Assembly (NCBI RefSeq): GCF_009807095.1
Contig: NZ_WUCC01000006.1
Location: forward strand, 248,001 to 312,000
Direction: 5' to 3'
Origin: Rathayibacter sp. VKM Ac-2754
GTDB taxonomy: Bacteria > Actinomycetota > Actinomycetes > Actinomycetales > Microbacteriaceae
Length of the DNA stretch: 64,000 bases
Below, in pieces: positions 28,929 to 36,523 of the stretch. The number at the start of each line of letters is the position of its first letter. Positions within the stretch are counted from its first letter, which is position 1. The position numbers and the translations under genes are program-made. The notes under the pieces are model-generated. The model searched no databases and was not told the origin of the DNA. It saw only the letters and a list, made by a program, of their open reading frames with translations.

Positions 28929-30119
28929 GTGCCGGACGATGCCACCACCCCCGTGATCCTCGGAGGAGCGCGGACTCCGTTCGCGCGCTTCTCAGGGGCC
29001 TTCGCCTCGCTGTCGGCGGTCGAGCTCGGCGCCGCCGCCGTACGGGCGGCCCTCGAGCGCTCGGGTGCGTCGCCGGCCGACGTCGATGCGGTGATCCTCG
29101 GGCAGGTGCTGCAGGCGGGGGCCGGGCAGGGTCCGGCGCGGCAGACGTCGGTCCGCGCGGGGCTGGGCTGGGACGTGCCGACCGTCACGATCAACAAGCT
29201 CTGCCTGTCGGGCCTCACCGCCGTCATCGACGCGGCGCGTCTCATCCGCACCGGAGAGGCGTCGGTCGTGGTCGCCGGCGGTCAGGAGTCGATGACCGGC
29301 GCCCCGCACCTCCTGCTCGGCGCGCGATCGGGTCTCGGAGTCGGTGCACGCCCGCTCGAGGACGCGCTGCTGCACGACGGGCTGCTCGATCCCTTCGACG
29401 ACCGCATCATGGGGCGGGTCACCGACGACGGCAACGCCGAGCGGGGCATCCGCCGCGAACGGCAGGACGCCTACGCTGCCCTCTCGCACCAGCGCGCCGC
29501 CACCGCACGGGCCTCGGGCGTCCTGGCCGAGGAGATCGCGCCGGTCGCGGTGCCCCAGCGCCGGGGCGACGACCTGGTCGTCACCGAGGACGACGGGATC
29601 CGGCCCGGGACGACGGTCGGGATCCTCGCGGGGCTGGCCCCCGCCTTCTCCCCGGAGGGGACGATCACGGCAGGCAGCTCCTCTCCACTCAGCGACGGGG
29701 CGGCCGCGCTCGTCGTCGTGTCGAAGGGCTGGGCTGCGGCGCGCCGGCTGCCCTGGATCGCCGAGATCCTCGAGCACGGGCAGGTCGCCGGACCCGACAA
29801 CTCGCTGCACTCGCAGCCGTCGGCCGCCATCCTCCGTGCCCTGGCCCGCCGCGGGGCCGCGGTGGCCGACCTCGACCTGATCGAGATCAACGAGGCGTTC
29901 GCCTCGGTGGTGCTGCAGTCGGCCGACGATCTCGGCGTCGCTCCCGAGTCGGTCAACGTCGACGGAGGCGCGATCGCGCTCGGGCACCCCGTCGGCGCCT
30001 CCGGGGCGCGCCTCGCCCTGCATCTCGCGCTCGCCCTCCGGCGGCGCGGCGGAGGCCTCGGGGTCGCCGCGCTCTGCGGCGGCGGCGGACAGGGCGAGGC
30101 GCTGCTGCTGCGGGTGTGA
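28929..30119 (+). CDS. Acetyl-CoA C-acetyltransferase (thiolase)
   Basis: A 396-aa thiolase that condenses or cleaves acyl-CoA. Catalytic elements: the nucleophile Cys in TINKLCLSGLTA, EINEAFASVVLQ, the His in ALGHPVGASGARL and the second Cys in AALCGGGGQGEALL. The GTG start at 28929 follows AAGGAGCCCGCC. The frame is open upstream across the previous gene, but that part is out of register with it. Convergent with the ABC permease gene (8 bp). With the preceding synthetase it suggests a small acyl-CoA degradation or synthesis operon. Confidence 0.94.
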   Translation: MPDDATTPVILGGARTPFARFSGAFASLSAVELGAAAVRAALERSGASPADVDAVILGQVLQAGAGQGPARQTSVRAGLGWDVPTVTINKLCLSGLTAVIDAARLIRTGEASVVVAGGQESMTGAPHLLLGARSGLGVGARPLEDALLHDGLLDPFDDRIMGRVTDDGNAERGIRRERQDAYAALSHQRAATARASGVLAEEIAPVAVPQRRGDDLVVTEDDGIRPGTTVGILAGLAPAFSPEGTITAGSSSPLSDGAAALVVVSKGWAAARRLPWIAEILEHGQVAGPDNSLHSQPSAAILRALARRGAAVADLDLIEINEAFASVVLQSADDLGVAPESVNVDGGAIALGHPVGASGARLALHLALALRRRGGGLGVAALCGGGGQGEALLLRV

Positions 30120-30127
30120 CCGTTCGC

Positions 30128-31207
30128 TCATCGGCCCCGCAGCGCCTCCAGGCCTCGGCCGCGCGGAGAGAGGGCGAGGCCCGCCAGGGGGATCAGAGCG
30201 GTGAGCGCCAGCAGTGCTCCGACATCGCTCGCGGCGAGCCGGAGGGCGAGCGGTGACCACGGGAGGAGGACCGCTGCCGCACCCACTCCGATCAGCAGCC
30301 CCACTCCCGTCTGCAGGGCCGTCTCGACGGTGAGGGCGAGCAGGAGGCGCGGGCTCGACATCCCGAGGCTGCGGTACAGGGCGAGGTCGCGGCGTCGAGC
30401 GAGCCAGGTCGCGCCGATGCCCAGCGCGCCGAGCGCGGCTCCGAGCGGTGGGCCGGCCGCGGAGAGGCGACCGGCCAGGCGGGAGTCGAGCGCGTCGCCG
30501 GGGCCGAGAGCGGGATCGAAGGGCGCGATCGTCGACTCGTACTCGGCGGGGAACCACGAGAGGGCGATCGCCTCGACTCCCGCGAGCGCCTCGTCGTCGG
30601 CCTCGACGAAGCACTCGACGACCGTCCCGGTGGCGGGTTCCGCGACGACGACGGCTCGATCGAGGAAGGGGATCCGGGGTGACGCGGCGGCCACCTGATC
30701 GATCCGGAGGGCGCGGGACTCGCCGTCGACGACGACGCCCGCCAGGGTGCCTGATCCGCTGAGTCCGGCGCGGGAGCCGAGGAGCGAGCCCGCCACAGCC
30801 GATCGCGACTCGTCCCGTCGGAGTGCCGCGCCGGGCCAGACCACCTCCGCGTAGCCCGGTGTCGCCGTGACCAGGGTGACGGACGAGCCGTCGGCCGCCG
30901 GCACCGTGGCGCTCTCGGTGACCCCTCCCGCCCCGGCCACCCCGGCGACGGACCGGAGTGCGTCGCAGCGGGCTGCGGGGAGAGGGACGCGATCCTTCGC
31001 CGAGATCGTCAGGACGGTGGAGCCCGCGAGGACGCGCTCCGCCGCCTCCGTCTCGACGGCGCCGACCTCGGCGCCGGTGAGCGCGGGCACCAGCAGACCC
31101 GCGAGGAGCGCGGTCGACACCGCCAGCGCGCTCAACGCCGAATGCCCGGCGACTGTCCGGACCGCCTCCTGCGCGAGGACGCCTCCACGGAAGCGCCGGT
31201 CAGCCAC
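30128..31207 (-). CDS. FtsX-like ABC transporter permease of the secreted-peptide locus
   Basis: A 359-aa membrane protein with one N-terminal transmembrane helix (about residues 18-42, LSALAVSTALLAGLLVPAL), a large extracytoplasmic domain (about 45-245) and a C-terminal membrane part with about three helices (GAALGALGIGATWLA, LLLALTVETALQTGVGLLIGVG, LLALTALIPLAGLAL). It has half of the MacB/LolC layout, so it probably works as a dimer with the ATPase encoded just upstream. The GTG start overlaps the ATPase gene by 8 bp. Last gene of a five-gene minus-strand operon. Confidence 0.85.
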   Translation of the reverse strand: MADRRFRGGVLAQEAVRTVAGHSALSALAVSTALLAGLLVPALTGAEVGAVETEAAERVLAGSTVLTISAKDRVPLPAARCDALRSVAGVAGAGGVTESATVPAADGSSVTLVTATPGYAEVVWPGAALRRDESRSAVAGSLLGSRAGLSGSGTLAGVVVDGESRALRIDQVAAASPRIPFLDRAVVVAEPATGTVVECFVEADDEALAGVEAIALSWFPAEYESTIAPFDPALGPGDALDSRLAGRLSAAGPPLGAALGALGIGATWLARRRDLALYRSLGMSSPRLLLALTVETALQTGVGLLIGVGAAAVLLPWSPLALRLAASDVGALLALTALIPLAGLALSPRGRGLEALRGR

Positions 31208-31829
31208 TGCGGGCCTCCCGAGGGTCGACGAGCAGCCCCGCGTCGATCCGGAGGAGGCGGTCGCAGGCCTCGGCGACGACGGGATCGTGAGTGGCGACGA
31301 CGACCGCCGCGCCCTCCTGCGCCGCCCTCGTCAGGGCGTCGATCACGAAGGATCGCGACACCGCGTCGAGCGCGGCGGTGGGCTCGTCGGCCAGGATCAG
31401 CGCGCTCTCCGCGGCCATCGCCCGGGCCACGGCCACTCTCTGCCGCTCACCGCCGGAGAGCCGGTGCACCGCCTGCGGAGCGAGCGTCTCGATTCCGAGA
31501 GCCGTCATCACCCCGATCGCCGTTCTCTCCGCCGCACGGCGGGTGGATCCCGAGGAGAGAGCCCCCAGGGCGACGTTGTCGAGGGCGCTGCGGCGGGCGA
31601 GCACGGGGGTCGACTGGACGATCCAGGCAGCACTCTCCCGCGCCACCGTCCGCACGGTGCCGCGGGTCGGGCGGAGGTCTCCCGCCACGACGCCGAGGAG
31701 GGTGGACTTGCCTGCTCCGGACGGGCCGACGAGGGCGACGGTCTCTCCGGACGAGAGGGCGAGCGACACGTCCTGGAGGATCGGGCGGGAGCCGCGGACG
31801 ACCCCCACGCCGTCGAGCGTCACGAGCAC
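31200..31829 (-). CDS. ABC transporter ATP-binding protein (LolD/MacB type)
   Basis: A 209-aa ATPase of the macrolide/lipoprotein export class. Walker A is LVGPSGAGKSTLLGVV (about residues 33-48), the signature is RLSGGERQRVAVARAM, Walker B is ALILADEPTAALD and the H-loop is VVVATHDPVV, all intact. The GTG at 31829 overlaps the adaptor gene by 10 bp and the end overlaps the permease gene, so the three are translated as one unit. In this family ATP hydrolysis drives export or extraction from the membrane surface rather than import. Confidence 0.93.
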   Translation of the reverse strand: MLVTLDGVGVVRGSRPILQDVSLALSSGETVALVGPSGAGKSTLLGVVAGDLRPTRGTVRTVARESAAWIVQSTPVLARRSALDNVALGALSSGSTRRAAERTAIGVMTALGIETLAPQAVHRLSGGERQRVAVARAMAAESALILADEPTAALDAVSRSFVIDALTRAAQEGAAVVVATHDPVVAEACDRLLRIDAGLLVDPREARSG

Positions 31830-32932
31830 GGCGGCTCCCCCGTCGCGGAGGCGACGAGCACCTCGTCGTCGTCGCCGAGCGGACCCGAGACGGTGCTGCG
31901 ACCGAGCGCGCTCGACTCGACGGTGACCTCGACCGGCTCCCCGCTCGCCCCCGCCCGCCGCCTGAGGAGGCAGGCCGCGCCCGACCCGCTCTCGTCGACA
32001 GCGGTGCTCGGGACCACCCAGGTGCCGGGGGTCGGCTCGGCGATCAGCACGGCGTCGATCCTCGCCAGAGCGGGGTCGATCATCTCGTCGAGCGCACCCC
32101 AGCCGGTGGCGTCGACACCCAGCCGGTCGACCGACAGGGGGAGCTCCCGCCCGCCGATCTCGAGCCGCTCCCCCGCGGCCGCGACGACGGCGCTCTGCAC
32201 GGTCGCTTCGGCGCCCTCGCCCGCCTCCGAGGTCCCCACCGCGTCGAGCAGCGCGGACGAGAGGGGCGGCCGGCTCGTCGCCACGGCGTCTCCCGGGACG
32301 GGCGCCGGCGCTCCGACGCGGAGCGTCGTCGTCGCGATGCGCACCTCCGGCTGCGGCAGGAAGACCAGCCAGGCGGGGTCGAACGCCTCGAGCGCGTCAG
32401 ACCCCGGCACCCCCAGATCGTCCGCGAGGGAGCGGACTCCGGTCAGGGTCCGAGCGGTGAACTCATCCGAGTCGGACGCGGAGAGGTCCCGGCGGGCGAG
32501 CAGGCGGTTGAGCGAGGCGACGTCCGCCCCCTCGTCGCCGCGCCGGAGCTCCCGGCCGAACGGTCGATCGGAGGCGACGGCCGGCCGGTCGATCCCGCCG
32601 ACGGTCGCCACGACGTCTCCGTCGCGCAGGAGGGTGCCCGGCGCGATCCCGGTCGCCTCGACGATCCCGCTCCACGCCGGGGCGTAGAGCTCGACGGCGG
32701 CACGCCTGCCGACGACGACGCCGACCGCGCGCCGGGACGCGGCCGTGCTCGCCTGCACCGGCGACCAGACGTCGATGCTCGGTGCGAGCCCCGCCGTCCG
32801 GGTGGACTCCGCGAGCACGAGGTACCCGCCGATGGGGAGCGCGATCCACGCGAGCAGCCCGAGTGCGAGGGAAGCGCGCACGATCACGGAACCCGCGGAG
32901 ATCCGCGATCGCCGCGCCGCTCCTCGCACCAC
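31820..32932 (-). CDS. Membrane-anchored adaptor with peptidoglycan-binding segment
   Basis: A 370-aa protein with one N-terminal membrane helix (about residues 17-40, ASLALGLLAWIALPIGGYLVL) and a long extracytoplasmic part. A biotinyl-lipoyl-like stretch (APAWSGIVEATGIAPGTLLRDGDVVATVGG) is followed by a PG_binding_1-like segment (RGDEGADVASLNRLLARRDL, about 133-175), and the C-terminal half has the beta-rich pattern of HlyD-type adaptors. Such fusion proteins couple an ABC exporter to the cell wall. It starts (GTG 32932) just after the lipoprotein stop and overlaps the ATPase start. Confidence 0.8.
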   Translation of the reverse strand: MVRGAARRSRISAGSVIVRASLALGLLAWIALPIGGYLVLAESTRTAGLAPSIDVWSPVQASTAASRRAVGVVVGRRAAVELYAPAWSGIVEATGIAPGTLLRDGDVVATVGGIDRPAVASDRPFGRELRRGDEGADVASLNRLLARRDLSASDSDEFTARTLTGVRSLADDLGVPGSDALEAFDPAWLVFLPQPEVRIATTTLRVGAPAPVPGDAVATSRPPLSSALLDAVGTSEAGEGAEATVQSAVVAAAGERLEIGGRELPLSVDRLGVDATGWGALDEMIDPALARIDAVLIAEPTPGTWVVPSTAVDESGSGAACLLRRRAGASGEPVEVTVESSALGRSTVSGPLGDDDEVLVASATGEPPCS

Positions 32933-32933
32933 G

Positions 32934-33545
32934 TCAGTACCCCGCCGAGAGCGACGTCATCTCGGGGTAGAGGCGCGAGGCCTCGCTCAGCACGCAGTCG
33001 ACCGCCTCCTCGGCCTCGGCCTCGCCGACGGAGTCGACGAAGTCGGCGACCTCGGTCTCCTCGCCCGTCGCCGTGAGCCCCTTGCCGCGCAGGCACTCGG
33101 CGGTCGCCTCCGCCAGAGGTGCGTCCATCACCTGCGGCTGCGACAGCTCGTAGGCCTGGGCCGCGCTCGTGCGGTGGACGGCCTCGCACTCGTCGATGTC
33201 GGCCAGCGCGGCGGTCTGCTCGCGCGTGCCGATGTCGACCGAGGACTGGTACCTCACCCCGTCCACCGGGCTGATCTGCGGGCCCTCGACGCTCAGGCCC
33301 TTGTCGGTGAGACAGCGGGCGTAGAGGACGAACGACGCGTCGTACTCCTCGAAGGTCACGACGCCGTCCTCGAGGAGCTCCGCCTGCTCCTCGTGCCCGG
33401 CGTCCCGCTCCTGGGCCGCGAGCGCCTCGATCCGACCGGACGACATCGGCTCGTGACGGACGGAGCCGCTCGGGCCTCCGGCGGCGCAGCCGGCGAGCCC
33501 GAGGAGCGCGGCGAGACCGGCGAGCGCGGTGATGGATCGTCGCAT
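32934..33545 (-). CDS. Lipoprotein of the secreted-peptide module A
   Basis: A 203-aa predicted lipoprotein of unknown family. The signal peptide ends in the lipobox LAGC (Cys20). The mature part is acidic and has four further cysteines (YARCL, IDECE, TAECL, AVDCV), enough for two disulfides. It is strongly similar to the module B lipoprotein (34103-34720), especially in LLEDGVVTFEEYDASF and ISPVDGVRYQSS. Its ATG shares bases with the stop of the small secreted protein gene (TGATG), so it is made in a fixed ratio with it. A role in immunity, chaperoning or reception is an inference from this pairing. Confidence 0.75.
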   Translation of the reverse strand: MRRSITALAGLAALLGLAGCAAGGPSGSVRHEPMSSGRIEALAAQERDAGHEEQAELLEDGVVTFEEYDASFVLYARCLTDKGLSVEGPQISPVDGVRYQSSVDIGTREQTAALADIDECEAVHRTSAAQAYELSQPQVMDAPLAEATAECLRGKGLTATGEETEVADFVDSVGEAEAEEAVDCVLSEASRLYPEMTSLSAGY

Positions 33546-33910
33546 CACGTGTTCCGCGGGTATCCGCCGTTGATCGAGTGGTTGCCGTAGACCGTCGCGG
33601 ACTGCGGGTTCGACCGGCTCGCGGTGACGCTCCCCCAGTTGTACTGCCACGATCCGACCGAGGCTCCGGCGATCGCGCGGGCACCCGCGGACTTGTTGCC
33701 CCAGCAGTACCCGTTGAAGGACGTGAAGGCGACGGCCTGGCCTCCGCTCGGGTTGCTGCGGTAGTAGTACGCGCCCGAGTTGCAGCCGCCGCCCGGCGTG
33801 ATCTGACTCGACCCCGAGCCGTAGGCGAGAGCCGTGGGCGCGGCGAGACCTGCGACGAGGGCCGCCGAGGCGAGGGCGACCAGAGCTGTGCGCCGTGATC
33901 GACGAGACAT
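33545..33910 (-). CDS. Small secreted two-cysteine protein, module A
   Basis: A 121-aa precursor with a Sec signal peptide (cleavage expected after TALA, residue 29), leaving a 92-residue glycine-, serine- and aromatic-rich protein. The mature part starts YGSG, has ITPGGGC and GYCWGNKSAGA with the only two cysteines (one likely disulfide), then GASVG-WQYNWGSV and a C-terminal ATVYGNHSINGGY block. About 75% of the mature residues match module B (hand count). AAGGAGG precedes the ATG. I do not recognise the family; size, export and the linked ABC genes suggest a bacteriocin-like or signalling protein. First gene of the five-gene operon. Confidence 0.75.
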   Translation of the reverse strand: MSRRSRRTALVALASAALVAGLAAPTALAYGSGSSQITPGGGCNSGAYYYRSNPSGGQAVAFTSFNGYCWGNKSAGARAIAGASVGSWQYNWGSVTASRSNPQSATVYGNHSINGGYPRNT

Positions 33911-33927
33911 GATTCCTCCTTGATGGC

Positions 33928-33948
33928 GGGGCGGGTGGGATCCGCCCC
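33928..33948 (-). promoter_or_regulatory. Leader hairpin of module A
   Basis: 7-bp stem (GGGGCGG with CCGCCCC) around 7 nt, lying between a conserved CTCACCTCG (minus strand, 33948-33956) and the ribosome-binding site. Module B has a hairpin of different sequence at the same place. Confidence 0.5.
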
Positions 33949-34102
33949 GAGGTGAGTAGTGCTCAGATCGTAGGACTCAGCCTCCCATACTCGGATGGTG
34001 ATCGGCACGTCTCGGGACGACTGCGTGCTCTTCCGCTCCTGTGGAGGAGCGAAGCGTCAATCGCGGGCCCGCCGATGCCGCTCCCCGCGGTCCGGTGCCG
34101 CC

Positions 34103-34720
34103 TCAGTACCCCACCGAGAGGGCGGGCATCTCGGGATAGAGGCGGGTCGCCTCATCGAGGACGCAGTCCATCACCACGTCGTCCTCGGCCTCTCCGACCG
34201 ACTCGACGAAGTCGACGACGTTCGCCTCCTCCCCCGTCGCGGAGAGGCCCCTCCCGGTCAGGCACTCCCCGGTCGCCGTCGCGAGCGGGGGATCCATGAC
34301 CTGCGGTCGGGACAGCTCGTAGGCCTGGGCGACGCTCGTCGAGTACCTCGCCTGGCACTCGTCGATGTCGGCGAGCGCGGCGGACCGCTCCCGCGTGCCG
34401 ATGTCGGTCGACGACTCGTATCTGACACCGTCCACCGGGCTGACCTGAGGACCCTCGACCGTGAAGCCCTTGCCGGTCAGGCACTCGGCGTAGCGGGTGA
34501 AGGACGCGTCGTACTCCTCGAACGTCACGACGCCGTCCTCGAGGGACTCCGCCTGCTCGTCGTGACCCGACTCGCGCTCCTGCTCCCCGAGGGCCTCGAT
34601 CTGCGCGGACGACAGCGGCTCGTGCCGGACGGAGTCGTCCGGCACCGCTCCCGAGCAGCCCGCGAGCACGAGCAGCACGACGGCTCCCGAGCCGGAGAGC
34701 GCGAGACCTCGACGCCCCAT
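34103..34720 (-). CDS. Lipoprotein of the secreted-peptide module B
   Basis: A 205-aa lipoprotein paralogous to the one at 32934-33545. Lipobox LAGC (Cys22) is followed by SVRHEPLSSAQIEALGEQE and the shared EDGVVTFEEYDASF and SPVDGVRYES blocks; the four extra cysteines are in the same places. As in module A, the start overlaps the stop of the small secreted protein by TGATG. The frame is open upstream across that gene, but the lipobox fixes the start. A 192-bp gap with its own leader separates it from module A, so module B may be transcribed separately or read through. Confidence 0.75.
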   Translation of the reverse strand: MGRRGLALSGSGAVVLLVLAGCSGAVPDDSVRHEPLSSAQIEALGEQERESGHDEQAESLEDGVVTFEEYDASFTRYAECLTGKGFTVEGPQVSPVDGVRYESSTDIGTRERSAALADIDECQARYSTSVAQAYELSRPQVMDPPLATATGECLTGRGLSATGEEANVVDFVESVGEAEDDVVMDCVLDEATRLYPEMPALSVGY

Positions 34721-35079
34721 CAGGTGCTCCGCACGTATCCGCCGTTGATGGAGTGGTTGCCGTACACCGTGGCGTTCGCGGGCTTCGTGATCGAGGCGCT
34801 CACCGAGCCCCAGTTGTACTGCCACTTGCCGACCGACGCTCCGGCGATCGGCTGCGCCCCCGCCGACTTGTTGCCCCAGCAGTACCCGTCGAACGAGGTG
34901 AAGGCGTTGGCTCTGCCGCTGCCCGCATCGCTCCGGTAGTAGTAGGTGCCGGCATTGCAGCCGCCTCCCGGGGTGATCCTGGCCTGGCCCGACCCGTACG
35001 CCTCCGCCGGAGCGGCGACCGCTCCGGCGAGAAGAGCGGCGGCGATCGCTGCCGCGATCCGACGTGTGCGCAGTGACAT
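34720..35079 (-). CDS. Small secreted two-cysteine protein, module B
   Basis: A 119-aa precursor with a Sec signal peptide (27 residues, APAEA before YGSG) and a 92-residue mature part, the same length as module A. Cysteines lie in ITPGGGCNAG and GYCWGNKSAGA, and the C-terminal ATVYGNHSINGGY is identical to module A. Differences cluster at about residues 5-7, 23-29 and 67-73 of the mature protein, as expected for diverging surface or specificity regions. GAGGAGG lies 5 nt before ATG 35079. No transporter genes directly follow module B, so it probably shares the module A exporter if one is needed. Confidence 0.75.
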   Translation of the reverse strand: MSLRTRRIAAAIAAALLAGAVAAPAEAYGSGQARITPGGGCNAGTYYYRSDAGSGRANAFTSFDGYCWGNKSAGAQPIAGASVGKWQYNWGSVSASITKPANATVYGNHSINGGYVRST

Positions 35080-35097
35080 GGTGTTCCTCCTCGATGC

Positions 35098-35116
35098 GAG
35101 ACGGCCGATCCGTCTC
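35098..35116 (-). promoter_or_regulatory. Leader hairpin of module B
   Basis: 7-bp stem (GAGACGG with CCGTCTC) around a 5-nt loop, between CTCACCTCG (minus strand, 35119-35127) and the ribosome-binding site. Position and size equal those of module A while the stem bases differ in pairs. Confidence 0.5.
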
Positions 35117-35241
35117 GACGAGGTGAGCATATGTCGCAGTACCATCTCAGTATGCACTCCGCGACGCCGGCCGTGCACAGGCAACCAAGTGCGACGCCGT
35201 GGAGGAGCACCGAGCCCGAGGGCCGCAGCTCCGCTCCCGGA

Positions 35242-35253: not shown

Positions 35254-35640
35254 ATGAGCATCCTCAGCGCCGACGGCCTCGCCTTCGTGACCGATCGCCA
35301 CCTGGCCACCCTCTCGACCCCGTGGCAGCAGGGGCGCCTCCACGTCGTCGCCGTCGGGTTCACCTATGAGGACGGAGTGGTGCGCGTCATCACCTCGCGC
35401 GAGAGCCAGAAGGTGCTGAACGTCCGTCGCGGCGGCACCGCGACCGTCAGCCAGGTCGACGGCATCCGCTGGCTCAGCCTCGGCGGCCCCGCGACGATCG
35501 AGGAGGAGCCCGATGCCGTCGCGCACGCGGTCGAGCTCTACTCCGCTCGGTACCGGACGCCGCGCCCGAACCCGCTCCGCGTCGCCATCCGCATCGACGT
35601 CGACTTCGCCCTCGCCTCCTCGGGCCTCCGCGCGGAGTAG
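35254..35640 (+). CDS. PPOX-class F420-dependent oxidoreductase-like protein
   Basis: A 128-aa split-beta-barrel flavin/deazaflavin protein of the pyridoxamine-phosphate-oxidase superfamily: FVTDRHLATLSTPWQQGRLHVVAVGFTY, then VITSRESQKVLNVRRGGTATVSQVDG and WLSLGGPATIEEEPDAV. Size and motifs fit the short F420-binding members rather than true PdxH. Leaderless ATG at 35254. The next gene begins 4 bp later. Substrate unknown. Confidence 0.85.
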   Translation: MSILSADGLAFVTDRHLATLSTPWQQGRLHVVAVGFTYEDGVVRVITSRESQKVLNVRRGGTATVSQVDGIRWLSLGGPATIEEEPDAVAHAVELYSARYRTPRPNPLRVAIRIDVDFALASSGLRAE

Positions 35641-35644
35641 CCGG

Positions 35645-36523
35645 GTGCCCCGCTCCGACGCCCTCGGCCGGGGTGCACCCGTCTCGTCGCAGCGCACCTA
35701 CCGCTACGTCCGCGTCTCGCTCTGCGCAGCCGTTCTCCTGCTCGGCGTCGGCGTCGTCTGGCACCTGATCGCTCTCGGTCCCCTCCGCTCGATCAGCGCC
35801 GCGTACTACACGCCGGCGCGCAGCGTCTTCGTCGGCGCCCTCGTCGCCGTAGCCGTCGCGCTCGTCGTGCTGGCGGGCCGCAGTGTCCGGCGCTACCTGC
35901 TCCTCCTGGCCGGGATGATCGCGCCGATCATCGCGCTGGTCCCCGTTCCGCTCGACGCCGGCGAGCTGCCCGGCGCCGGCTGCGCCGACGGCGCCGCGCG
36001 CTGCCTGCCCGCGGGCACTGTCGACGAGGTCGCGGTGGGGATGCTCGCCTACCTGACCGTGTCGGCCGCGGTGCTCGCCGCCTCCGTCGTCTTCCTCGCA
36101 CTCGACCGCTCCCTCGACCGCTGGGCCGTCCTGCGCTGCGGCATCGCCGCGCTCCTGCTCGCGGCCGTCGGGCTCTGGTCGACGCAGCCGTCGTTCGGCC
36201 TCGTCGCGCACTACGCGGCCGCCGGTGCCTTCTTCGTGCTGATCGCCGCCGTCGCCGGGATCCACGCGGCGGAGGTCGGCGCCGAGGGGGTCACCGGACC
36301 GGGCTCGCCCGTCGTCTACGCGCGCTGCTACGCGGCCCTCGCGGCCCTGATCGCTCTGGTCGAGGTGCTGCTGATCGCGCTCGTCGCCACGGGCAGCGGC
36401 GCGAGTCTGCTGGGCGACCAGTGGCTCCTGATCGGCGAGGCGGCCGCGCTGGCGCTGTTCGCGGCGTTCTGGGTGCTGCAGACCGTCGAGAACTGGGACG
36501 AGCCGGACGCGACCGTGCGCTGA
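35645..36523 (+). CDS. Polytopic membrane protein (DUF998-like)
   Basis: A 292-aa membrane protein with about eight hydrophobic helices, in four pairs separated by short loops; the loop after helix 3 contains two cysteines (GAGCADGAARCLP) that could form an extracytoplasmic disulfide. The hydrophobic pattern resembles DUF998 proteins, but I see no diagnostic motif. GTG 35645 follows the PPOX gene by 4 bp; the open frame begins earlier, inside that gene. Function unknown. Confidence 0.7.
   Translation: MPRSDALGRGAPVSSQRTYRYVRVSLCAAVLLLGVGVVWHLIALGPLRSISAAYYTPARSVFVGALVAVAVALVVLAGRSVRRYLLLLAGMIAPIIALVPVPLDAGELPGAGCADGAARCLPAGTVDEVAVGMLAYLTVSAAVLAASVVFLALDRSLDRWAVLRCGIAALLLAAVGLWSTQPSFGLVAHYAAAGAFFVLIAAVAGIHAAEVGAEGVTGPGSPVVYARCYAALAALIALVEVLLIALVATGSGASLLGDQWLLIGEAAALALFAAFWVLQTVENWDEPDATVR

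Follow-up and report, generated by a model that had tools for sequence, protein, structure and literature searches.

The stretch of DNA analysed here, 64,000 nucleotides of Rathayibacter sp. VKM Ac-2754 (contig NZ_WUCC01000006.1, positions 248,001 to 312,000; hereafter the window), raises the question of why two copies of a short secreted protein, each paired with a lipoprotein, are encoded together with a single set of adaptor, ATP-binding cassette (ABC) and FtsX-type genes, and whether that set exports the secreted proteins or protects the cell from them. The locus occupies positions 30128–35079 on the minus strand and comprises seven genes. Two paralogous modules of peptide and lipoprotein precede the shared adaptor, ABC ATPase and FtsX/MacB-type permease, and the order of transcription is peptide 1, lipoprotein 1, peptide 2, lipoprotein 2, adaptor, ABC ATPase and FtsX-type permease. 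On balance, and by a modest degree, we favour a bacteriocin-type antagonism cassette, in which each lipoprotein would confer immunity specific to its peptide and the adaptor–ABC–FtsX complex would be an immunity pump rather than an exporter. The genes are as follows.

34720–35079, minus strand: module 1 peptide, precursor of 119 residues, 92 mature residues, two cysteines; paralogue of the module 2 peptide, no family above cut-off
34103–34720, minus strand: module 1 lipoprotein, lipobox cysteine and four more cysteines; proposed cognate immunity protein
33545–33910, minus strand: module 2 peptide, precursor of 121 residues, 92 mature residues, two cysteines; 79% identity to the single copy in genome G003
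32934–33545, minus strand: module 2 lipoprotein; 83% identity to the single G003 copy
31820–32932, minus strand: adaptor of the membrane-fusion type; a single N-terminal hydrophobic stretch and, embedded in the protein, a peptidoglycan-binding segment deduced from homologues
31200–31829, minus strand: ABC ATPase; PF00005 at 1.8e-28, second-best NCBIfam match L_ocin_972_ABC, below its cut-off
30128–31207, minus strand: FtsX/MacB-type permease with an N-terminal hydrophobic stretch, an outer domain of about 200 residues and C-terminal hydrophobic stretches

All seven genes, with the two paralogous pairs among them, were recovered as an earlier note on this DNA had described them. The two modules share 71% identity between the peptides and 69% between the lipoproteins. 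In both modules the stop codon of the peptide gene and the start codon of the lipoprotein gene overlap by one base (TGATG), the second lipoprotein gene is spaced from the adaptor gene by 1 base, and the adaptor and ABC genes and the ABC and FtsX genes overlap by 10 and 8 bases, respectively. The junctions thus overlap or abut within each module and throughout the second unit, in agreement with the same note.

Both peptides carry a basic start, a hydrophobic stretch and a putative cleavage site between AxA and Y, as called by inspection and by our own rule-based finder, and both therefore bear a Sec-type secretion signal, as do members of the lactococcin 972 family; the predicted cleavage leaves the 92 mature residues noted earlier. 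The two cysteines are invariant among five aligned members. Neither the peptides nor the lipoproteins scored above a Pfam or NCBIfam cut-off, and the only NCBIfam matches of the peptides were NF038083 (0.034) and NF058595 (0.85), both far below cut-off. The lactococcin 972 models PF09683 and TIGR01653 were not matched by either peptide at an expectation value (E) ≤ 1, and homology to lactococcin 972 was rejected in a profile comparison with 18 family members, which gave a probability of only 0.35–1.4%; membership of that family is thus not supported. The best match of peptide 2 among solved structures had an E no lower than 1.4, and in plasmids no match was found for peptide 2 at E ≤ 1 or for lipoprotein 2 at E ≤ 0.001. 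Six of the seven cassette proteins had no match in PADLOC at E ≤ 0.01.

The peptide profile matched four of the 394 genomes of the class, namely the source genome, G082, G102 and G305. The last two matches (E 5.4e-4 for G102 and 2.0e-4 for G305) were set aside, and genomic context was checked for the source genome and for the weakly matching G082, in which no companions were found; the refuting outcome named in the earlier note, a peptide family spread widely in the absence of lipoprotein and ABC genes, was thus not observed. Weak peptide matches (L006/L023 in G082, L008, L024 and L025) were left out of the set, and L007 (G080, identical to locus L013) was retained because of its lipoprotein–adaptor–ABC–FtsX context.

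For the lipoproteins, the lipobox cysteine and four further cysteines are invariant among 13 aligned sequences. In the wider set (n = 47), over the part covered by the model, the lipobox is present in 45, and the cysteines after it number four in 25 sequences, three in 18 and two in 2. No Pfam match was found at E ≤ 1. An AlphaFold model of lipoprotein 1 from a single sequence is mostly helical, at low confidence (predicted local distance difference test, pLDDT, 59.5).

For the adaptor, Pfam detected no peptidoglycan-binding domain in the protein of the cassette itself, where the earlier note had placed such a segment. In homologous adaptors PF01471 scored above cut-off in L029 and below it in L051 and L013, and a profile of nine adaptors matched solved peptidoglycan-binding domains as well as lipoyl/biotinyl domains (E 0.001–0.002); TIGR01730 matched the L029 adaptor with an E of 0.00042, far under its cut-off. 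The segment is therefore retained at the level of the family. The FtsX-like call for the permease fared similarly: the Pfam FtsX score of the cassette protein (21 bits, E 0.00036) lies under the cut-off of 25.5, and that of its homologue in L051 (27.3) lies above it. Hydropathy peaks of the permease fall in windows starting at about residues 22–33 and 288–331, which places the outer domain after the first helix, as in MacAB-like permeases. With a profile of nine permeases, the only match among solved structures at E ≤ 0.01 was 5xu1 (E 0.0058), which we take to be the structure of pneumococcal Spr0694-0695, a MacAB-like pump. The ABC ATPase reached 144 bits against TIGR03608 (L_ocin_972_ABC), short of the cut-off of 254.85, with AztA ranking first at 146.6.

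The same gene set is found beside genuine lactococcin-972-type genes. A profile of five close lipoproteins (A2) matched seven of the 394 class genomes at E ≤ 0.001, the source genome included and several of them weakly; in one of these, G468, a lactococcin-972-type gene is followed by the lipoprotein, adaptor, ABC and FtsX genes. A search of the 394 genomes with PF09683 returned 20 places in 13 genomes, two of them in the source genome (3.97 Mb). One of the two (L051, C19) holds a complete lipoprotein–adaptor–ABC–FtsX set next to a peptide that exceeds both family cut-offs (PF09683, 34.8 versus 22 bits; TIGR01653, 33.4 versus 32.1). The G468 peptide passes the PF09683 cut-off and not that of TIGR01653 (28.1 versus 32.1). 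The other place in the source genome (L050, 8515–11706, C8) contains a second lactococcin-972-type gene, behind which lie genes for a protein of 684 residues and for an ABC protein; the peptide scores above the Pfam cut-off but below that of TIGR01653, its ABC protein falls below TIGR03608, and the 684-residue protein has no NCBIfam match at 1e-5. The source genome thus appears to contain three loci of bacteriocin type that differ in their make-up.

The association was then surveyed in the taxonomic family. Wider profiles matched lipoproteins in 138 and adaptors in 145 of 344 family genomes at E ≤ 0.001, although many of the weakest lipoprotein matches span the signal region only and are not to be counted as members. 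Among the 42 best adaptor matches by hand count (E ≤ 7.8e-33, a cut chosen after seeing where the linkage to lipoproteins ends), 40 have a lipoprotein match within 3 kb and one more gained a lipoprotein on rescanning (G633, L192), leaving G537 (L191) as the sole exception. The 90 loci examined comprised the cassette, nine earlier loci, 60 chosen by lipoprotein match and 20 by weaker lipoprotein or adaptor matches; 53 contain both lipoprotein and adaptor, 26 a lipoprotein without an adaptor, and 11 an adaptor without a lipoprotein. ABC and FtsX genes are also present in 48 of the 53, which are the complete loci. Two loci with the full set stand outside the 48, L013, where the lipoprotein was paired with a spurious adaptor match, and L167, where a filter dropped the adaptor.

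In the complete loci, the gene beside the lipoprotein encodes a lactococcin-972-type peptide in 19, another short secreted peptide in 23, and no peptide called by the script in six. Here, "lactococcin-type" means a match to our own 18-sequence model and membership of the same cluster, the public models having been applied to L051 and G468 only, and 19 of 48 is the lactococcin-type share of complete loci, not the share of such peptides that have the lipoprotein. The 23 other peptides consist of four of the cassette type and 19 in ten other clusters. A high-scoring secreted peptide with two to four cysteines lies 5' of 44 of the 69 system lipoproteins, compared with 3 of 308 control genes scanned with the same finder; for any peptide candidate, the counts are 47 of 69 and 58 of 308 control genes from the same loci. 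Exactly two cysteines are found in the mature part of 35 of the 47 slot peptides, and of 19 of the 27 that are not of lactococcin type. Ten peptides from nine clusters had no Pfam match at E ≤ 0.01, and homology among the clusters was sought by profile comparison, which joined none of them (best probability 14%, over 41 columns).

Some loci of the survey deserve separate mention. In L141 (8202–8594), a locus complete in all other respects, a peptide-like sequence 5' of the lipoprotein seems to be broken up between two reading frames. In G323, two paralogous short secreted cysteine-paired proteins are encoded with one lipoprotein of this family (L026, 9494–10852). Genome G586 has nine lipoprotein matches, which on rescanning fall in six loci (L143, L152, L153, L159, L168 and L173), and L143 is an array of four lipoproteins with one peptide called. 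In L149 and L169, matches to the lipoprotein model adjoin genes that by eye resemble sigma factors, without an adaptor; these were treated as different proteins and perhaps form a different but related group.

More than one lipoprotein is present in 12 of the 53 lipoprotein–adaptor loci, and the number of lipoproteins per natural locus ranges from one to four, alongside unlike peptides and split pump genes. The surplus lipoproteins, some of them without a peptide found, look like stored immunity genes.

Trees of the four companion proteins were compared with the type of peptide, using 42 of 47 rows, after removal of one near-duplicate and of four rows in which ABC or FtsX had not been called; the two modules of the cassette share one adaptor, one ABC and one FtsX row. 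The split between lactococcin-type and other peptides requires two changes on the lipoprotein tree, two on the FtsX tree and seven each on the adaptor and ABC trees, whereas 300 shuffles per tree gave about 14 changes on average and never fewer than eight. With all rows included, the corresponding numbers are 2, 3, 7 and 7 for lipoprotein, FtsX, adaptor and ABC. When all peptide classes are kept apart, the lipoprotein, adaptor, FtsX and ABC trees need 12, 13, 12 and 13 changes, respectively (about 23 when shuffled). The trees are quick and long-branched, and their signal includes genome relatedness. These results suggest that lipoprotein, adaptor, ABC and FtsX all travel with the peptide class; the tighter link of lipoprotein and FtsX is visible in the coarse split only. 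The specificity diversification suggested earlier for the doubled pairs fits both the multiple lipoproteins and the lipoprotein and FtsX lineages that follow peptide type in the two-way split.

The distribution within the genus was examined with the help of the two genes that border the cassette.

28929–30119, plus strand: left border gene, thiolase-like (named by eye), outside the cassette
35254–35640, plus strand: right border gene, PNPOx-like (named by eye, no family search)

The FtsX gene and the left border gene converge, with 8 bases between their ends. Judged by the peptide, four of the 15 genus genomes (G000, G002, G003 and G012) carry the cassette, and in the three of these other than the source genome the same gene order is found with one module each. 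The right border gene has a match in all 15. In nine genomes (G001, G005, G006, G007, G008, G010, G011, G013 and G014) the two border genes are adjacent without the cassette, which marks it as accessory and tied to a fixed chromosomal site; in G004 and G009, only a border gene of 55–56% identity lies within reach, without the left border gene. The single copy in G003 is closer to module 2 than to module 1, in peptide and lipoprotein alike. The ratios of nonsynonymous to synonymous substitution (dN/dS) against G003 are 0.24 for both the peptide and the lipoprotein of module 2, 0.33 for the adaptor, 0.27 for FtsX and, as the highest value, 0.44 for the ABC ATPase, compared with 0.09 and 0.02 for the left and right border genes. 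The cassette genes thus evolve as coding sequence under purifying selection.

In the mechanism that we propose, each module would yield a short Sec-secreted protein, probably with one disulphide between its two conserved cysteines, whose target would lie in the cell envelope of related bacteria. The lipoprotein, anchored to the membrane from outside, would neutralise the peptide of its own module, and the shared adaptor–ABC–FtsX complex would be a MacAB-like pump that frees the producer's own membrane or cell wall of the peptide. Lipoprotein and pump would protect jointly, like NisI and NisFEG for nisin, and the doubled module would broaden the range of toxins and immunity proteins, with a single pump serving both modules.

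The pump is read as an immunity device and not as an exporter since Sec-type signals are present on the peptides themselves. Published precedents, cited here from excerpts of the articles, point the same way. For lactococcin-972-type peptides, secretion through Sec without any special exporter is assumed (PMC11796350), and the putative ABC transporter of a lactococcin-972-type locus has been linked to immunity (PMC4055356). In nisin producers, a lipoprotein and an ABC transporter act together in immunity (PMC4828448), and Bacillus YknWXYZ, composed of an adaptor, an ATPase, a MacB-like permease and a fourth protein, protects against the secreted one-disulphide toxin SDP (PMC4887032). The Sec-type signals, these precedents and the profile matches of permease and adaptor together lead us to favour lipoprotein and pump as self-protection against an envelope-acting peptide. 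The bacteriocin and immunity part of the earlier proposal is accordingly strengthened by the same gene set beside lactococcin-972-type genes (19 of 48 complete loci), and its claim of an exporter emerges as the weak part, though TIGR03608, PMC4289311 and PMC11796350 side with it.

The competing proposal that the adaptor–ABC–FtsX complex is a dedicated exporter, taking over the peptide after Sec or carrying it across the wall once it is in the membrane, while the lipoprotein serves as surface chaperone or immunity protein, appears unlikely but deserves weight. It would account for the tight coupling of all the genes, the FtsX lineages track peptide type as closely as the lipoproteins do in the two-way split, and the peptidoglycan-binding segment of homologous adaptors could anchor them in the wall; in addition, TIGR03608 is named a putative bacteriocin export transporter, published annotation being often one of export, and lactococcin transport has been attributed to LclB (PMC4289311). 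The Sec-type signals on both peptides and the view that lactococcin-972-type peptides need no special exporter (PMC11796350) argue against it, as do the two peptides and lipoprotein of G323, around which (L026) no pump of the cassette type was found within 19 kb of retrieved sequence. Our confidence in the immunity pump was lowered, and that in the exporter raised, in view of the export annotation in the literature and of the near-equal counts on the four trees. A peptide pheromone with the lipoprotein as receptor and an FtsEX- or BceAB-like complex relaying the signal, in signalling or kin recognition, would suit the one-to-one pairing of peptide and lipoprotein in the cassette, and FtsX-type complexes can signal; we consider it improbable, given that no sensor kinase or regulator is found among the seven genes, that extra lipoproteins occur without a peptide, and that a slot filled by lactococcin-type genes in 19 of 48 loci and by many dissimilar clusters fits toxins better. 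Least probable of all would be a structural or protective surface system in which lipoprotein and pump place the peptides without any role against other bacteria: the antagonism itself is deduced from sequence and context, and the adaptor family has a wall-binding segment, but the accessory distribution (4 of 15 genus genomes), the faster protein change than in the border genes (dN/dS 0.24–0.44 versus 0.09 and 0.02) and the bacteriocin-type genes in the same slot all speak against it.

A number of observations weigh against the antagonism cassette with an immunity pump. Two published accounts pull away from it: the companion genes are described as presumed immunity and transport genes whose roles are without experimental verification (PMC11796350), and LclB is called a transporter, the companions being a transporter and an immunity protein (PMC4289311). 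The export name of TIGR03608, the seven changes needed by the adaptor and ABC trees, and the near-equal counts of all four trees when peptide classes are kept apart belong here as well. The cassette peptide is not detectably a lactococcin 972 by family models or profile comparison, and its AlphaFold model from three sequences is of low confidence (pLDDT 33). In the class sample the lipoprotein lies beside only 2 of the 20 PF09683 places (G468 and C19), and the possible distant peptide relative in G082 (E 7.2e-8) has no companion genes in the 20 kb fetched. Most loci of the survey were picked by lipoprotein match, and the adaptor cut was set after the fact. The 26 lipoprotein loci lacking an adaptor were so called by script (the adaptor of L167 was lost by the overlap filter), and the 11 adaptor-only loci comprise ten weaker adaptor matches and the strong L191 of G537. 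Among the six complete loci with no peptide called, L029 and L174 have a candidate by eye, L141 has the split peptide-like sequence described above, L153 lies near a contig end, and in L136 and L137 none was seen. Finally, in G537 (L183/L191) and G590 (L157/L137) the peptide–lipoprotein pairs and the pump genes lie at separate places, the pump locus L137 having its own lipoprotein; this reflects either cooperation at a distance or parts able to live apart.

More broadly, and somewhat more tentatively, the antagonism cassette may represent a general small-disulphide-toxin platform in Microbacteriaceae and some other actinomycetes, in which one immunity machine, composed of a four-cysteine lipoprotein, a wall-binding adaptor, an ABC ATPase and FtsX, serves many unrelated peptides, lactococcin 972 being one of them. 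The modules and stored lipoproteins would then form a small-peptide counterpart of polymorphic toxin–immunity systems, and the cassette peptides would be founders of a new toxin family. No description of this combination, of the adaptor or of the many unlike slot peptides was found among the top results of literature searches in open PubMed Central text. If the platform exists, companion-gene roles in lactococcin-972-type loci, experimentally unverified according to the excerpt of PMC11796350, would become testable. It would also mean that the bacterial family of the source, common on plants and in soil, harbours a large and still untapped reservoir of short secreted antibacterial proteins, missed by current models and findable through the lipoprotein.

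Two further features of the region were observed. An invariant CTCCTCCAC block and a CATAC-GTATG-like near-palindrome, about 60–90 nucleotides 5' of the peptide starts, are common to the leaders of all five close peptide genes, and in the same five leaders a GC-rich hairpin of variable sequence precedes the ribosome-binding site. In the cassette these hairpins are the following.

35097–35117, minus strand: GC-rich hairpin in the module 1 leader, just 5' of the ribosome-binding site (z −2.56)
33927–33949, minus strand: GC-rich hairpin in the module 2 leader (z −2.05)

Over the five genes, the z scores of the hairpins are −2.6, −2.1, −0.6, −0.5 and −2.6, two of the five being not significant; the shared leader elements are possibly a regulator site or an attenuator. 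To the right of the cassette, a membrane-protein gene (35645–36523) has 56% identity to its counterparts in G003 and G007, which share 94% with each other, and the gene before it has 98% identity in the same comparison; the membrane-protein gene looks like an exchanged allele.

Compared with known systems, the cassette resembles lactococcin 972 loci, for which TIGR01654 is presumably a family model, in that a short Sec-type secreted protein is encoded with adjoining ABC genes, and in that true members of that family occupy the same gene set in related genomes and once in the source genome. Conversely, the cassette peptides match neither PF09683 nor TIGR01653 and show no profile similarity to the family, the ABC ATPase lies below the TIGR03608 cut-off, and a lipoprotein, an adaptor and an FtsX permease replace the large membrane protein. 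Hallmarks of the lactococcin 972 family include a beta-sandwich fold and the binding of lipid II with a block of septum formation. Gene order is reported to depart from the known one in lactococcin-972-like loci of Propionibacterium acnes (PMC4289311), and a paper that also refers to Microbacteriaceae (PMC12823222) names a lactococcin 972 cluster from Frigoribacterium, with no companion genes in the excerpt. TMcin (PMC12328743) was dropped as a relative, since in the excerpt its peptide and gene content differ. Nisin immunity (NisI and NisFEG) likewise combines a lipoprotein on the outer face with an ABC transporter, both encoded alongside a secreted antibacterial peptide (PMC4828448), whereas the cassette is without lanthionine genes, its transporter is of the FtsX type, and the profile of 13 lipoproteins found neither LanI nor NisI among solved structures at E ≤ 0.1. 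With the MacAB-like YknWXYZ and Spr0693-0695 of Gram-positive bacteria it shares the encoding of adaptor, ATPase and permease as separate proteins, the outer domain of the permease following its first helix (PMC5768738); it is set apart from them, at remote sequence similarity, by an adaptor family with an embedded peptidoglycan-binding segment and by a pump encoded together with peptide and lipoprotein genes.

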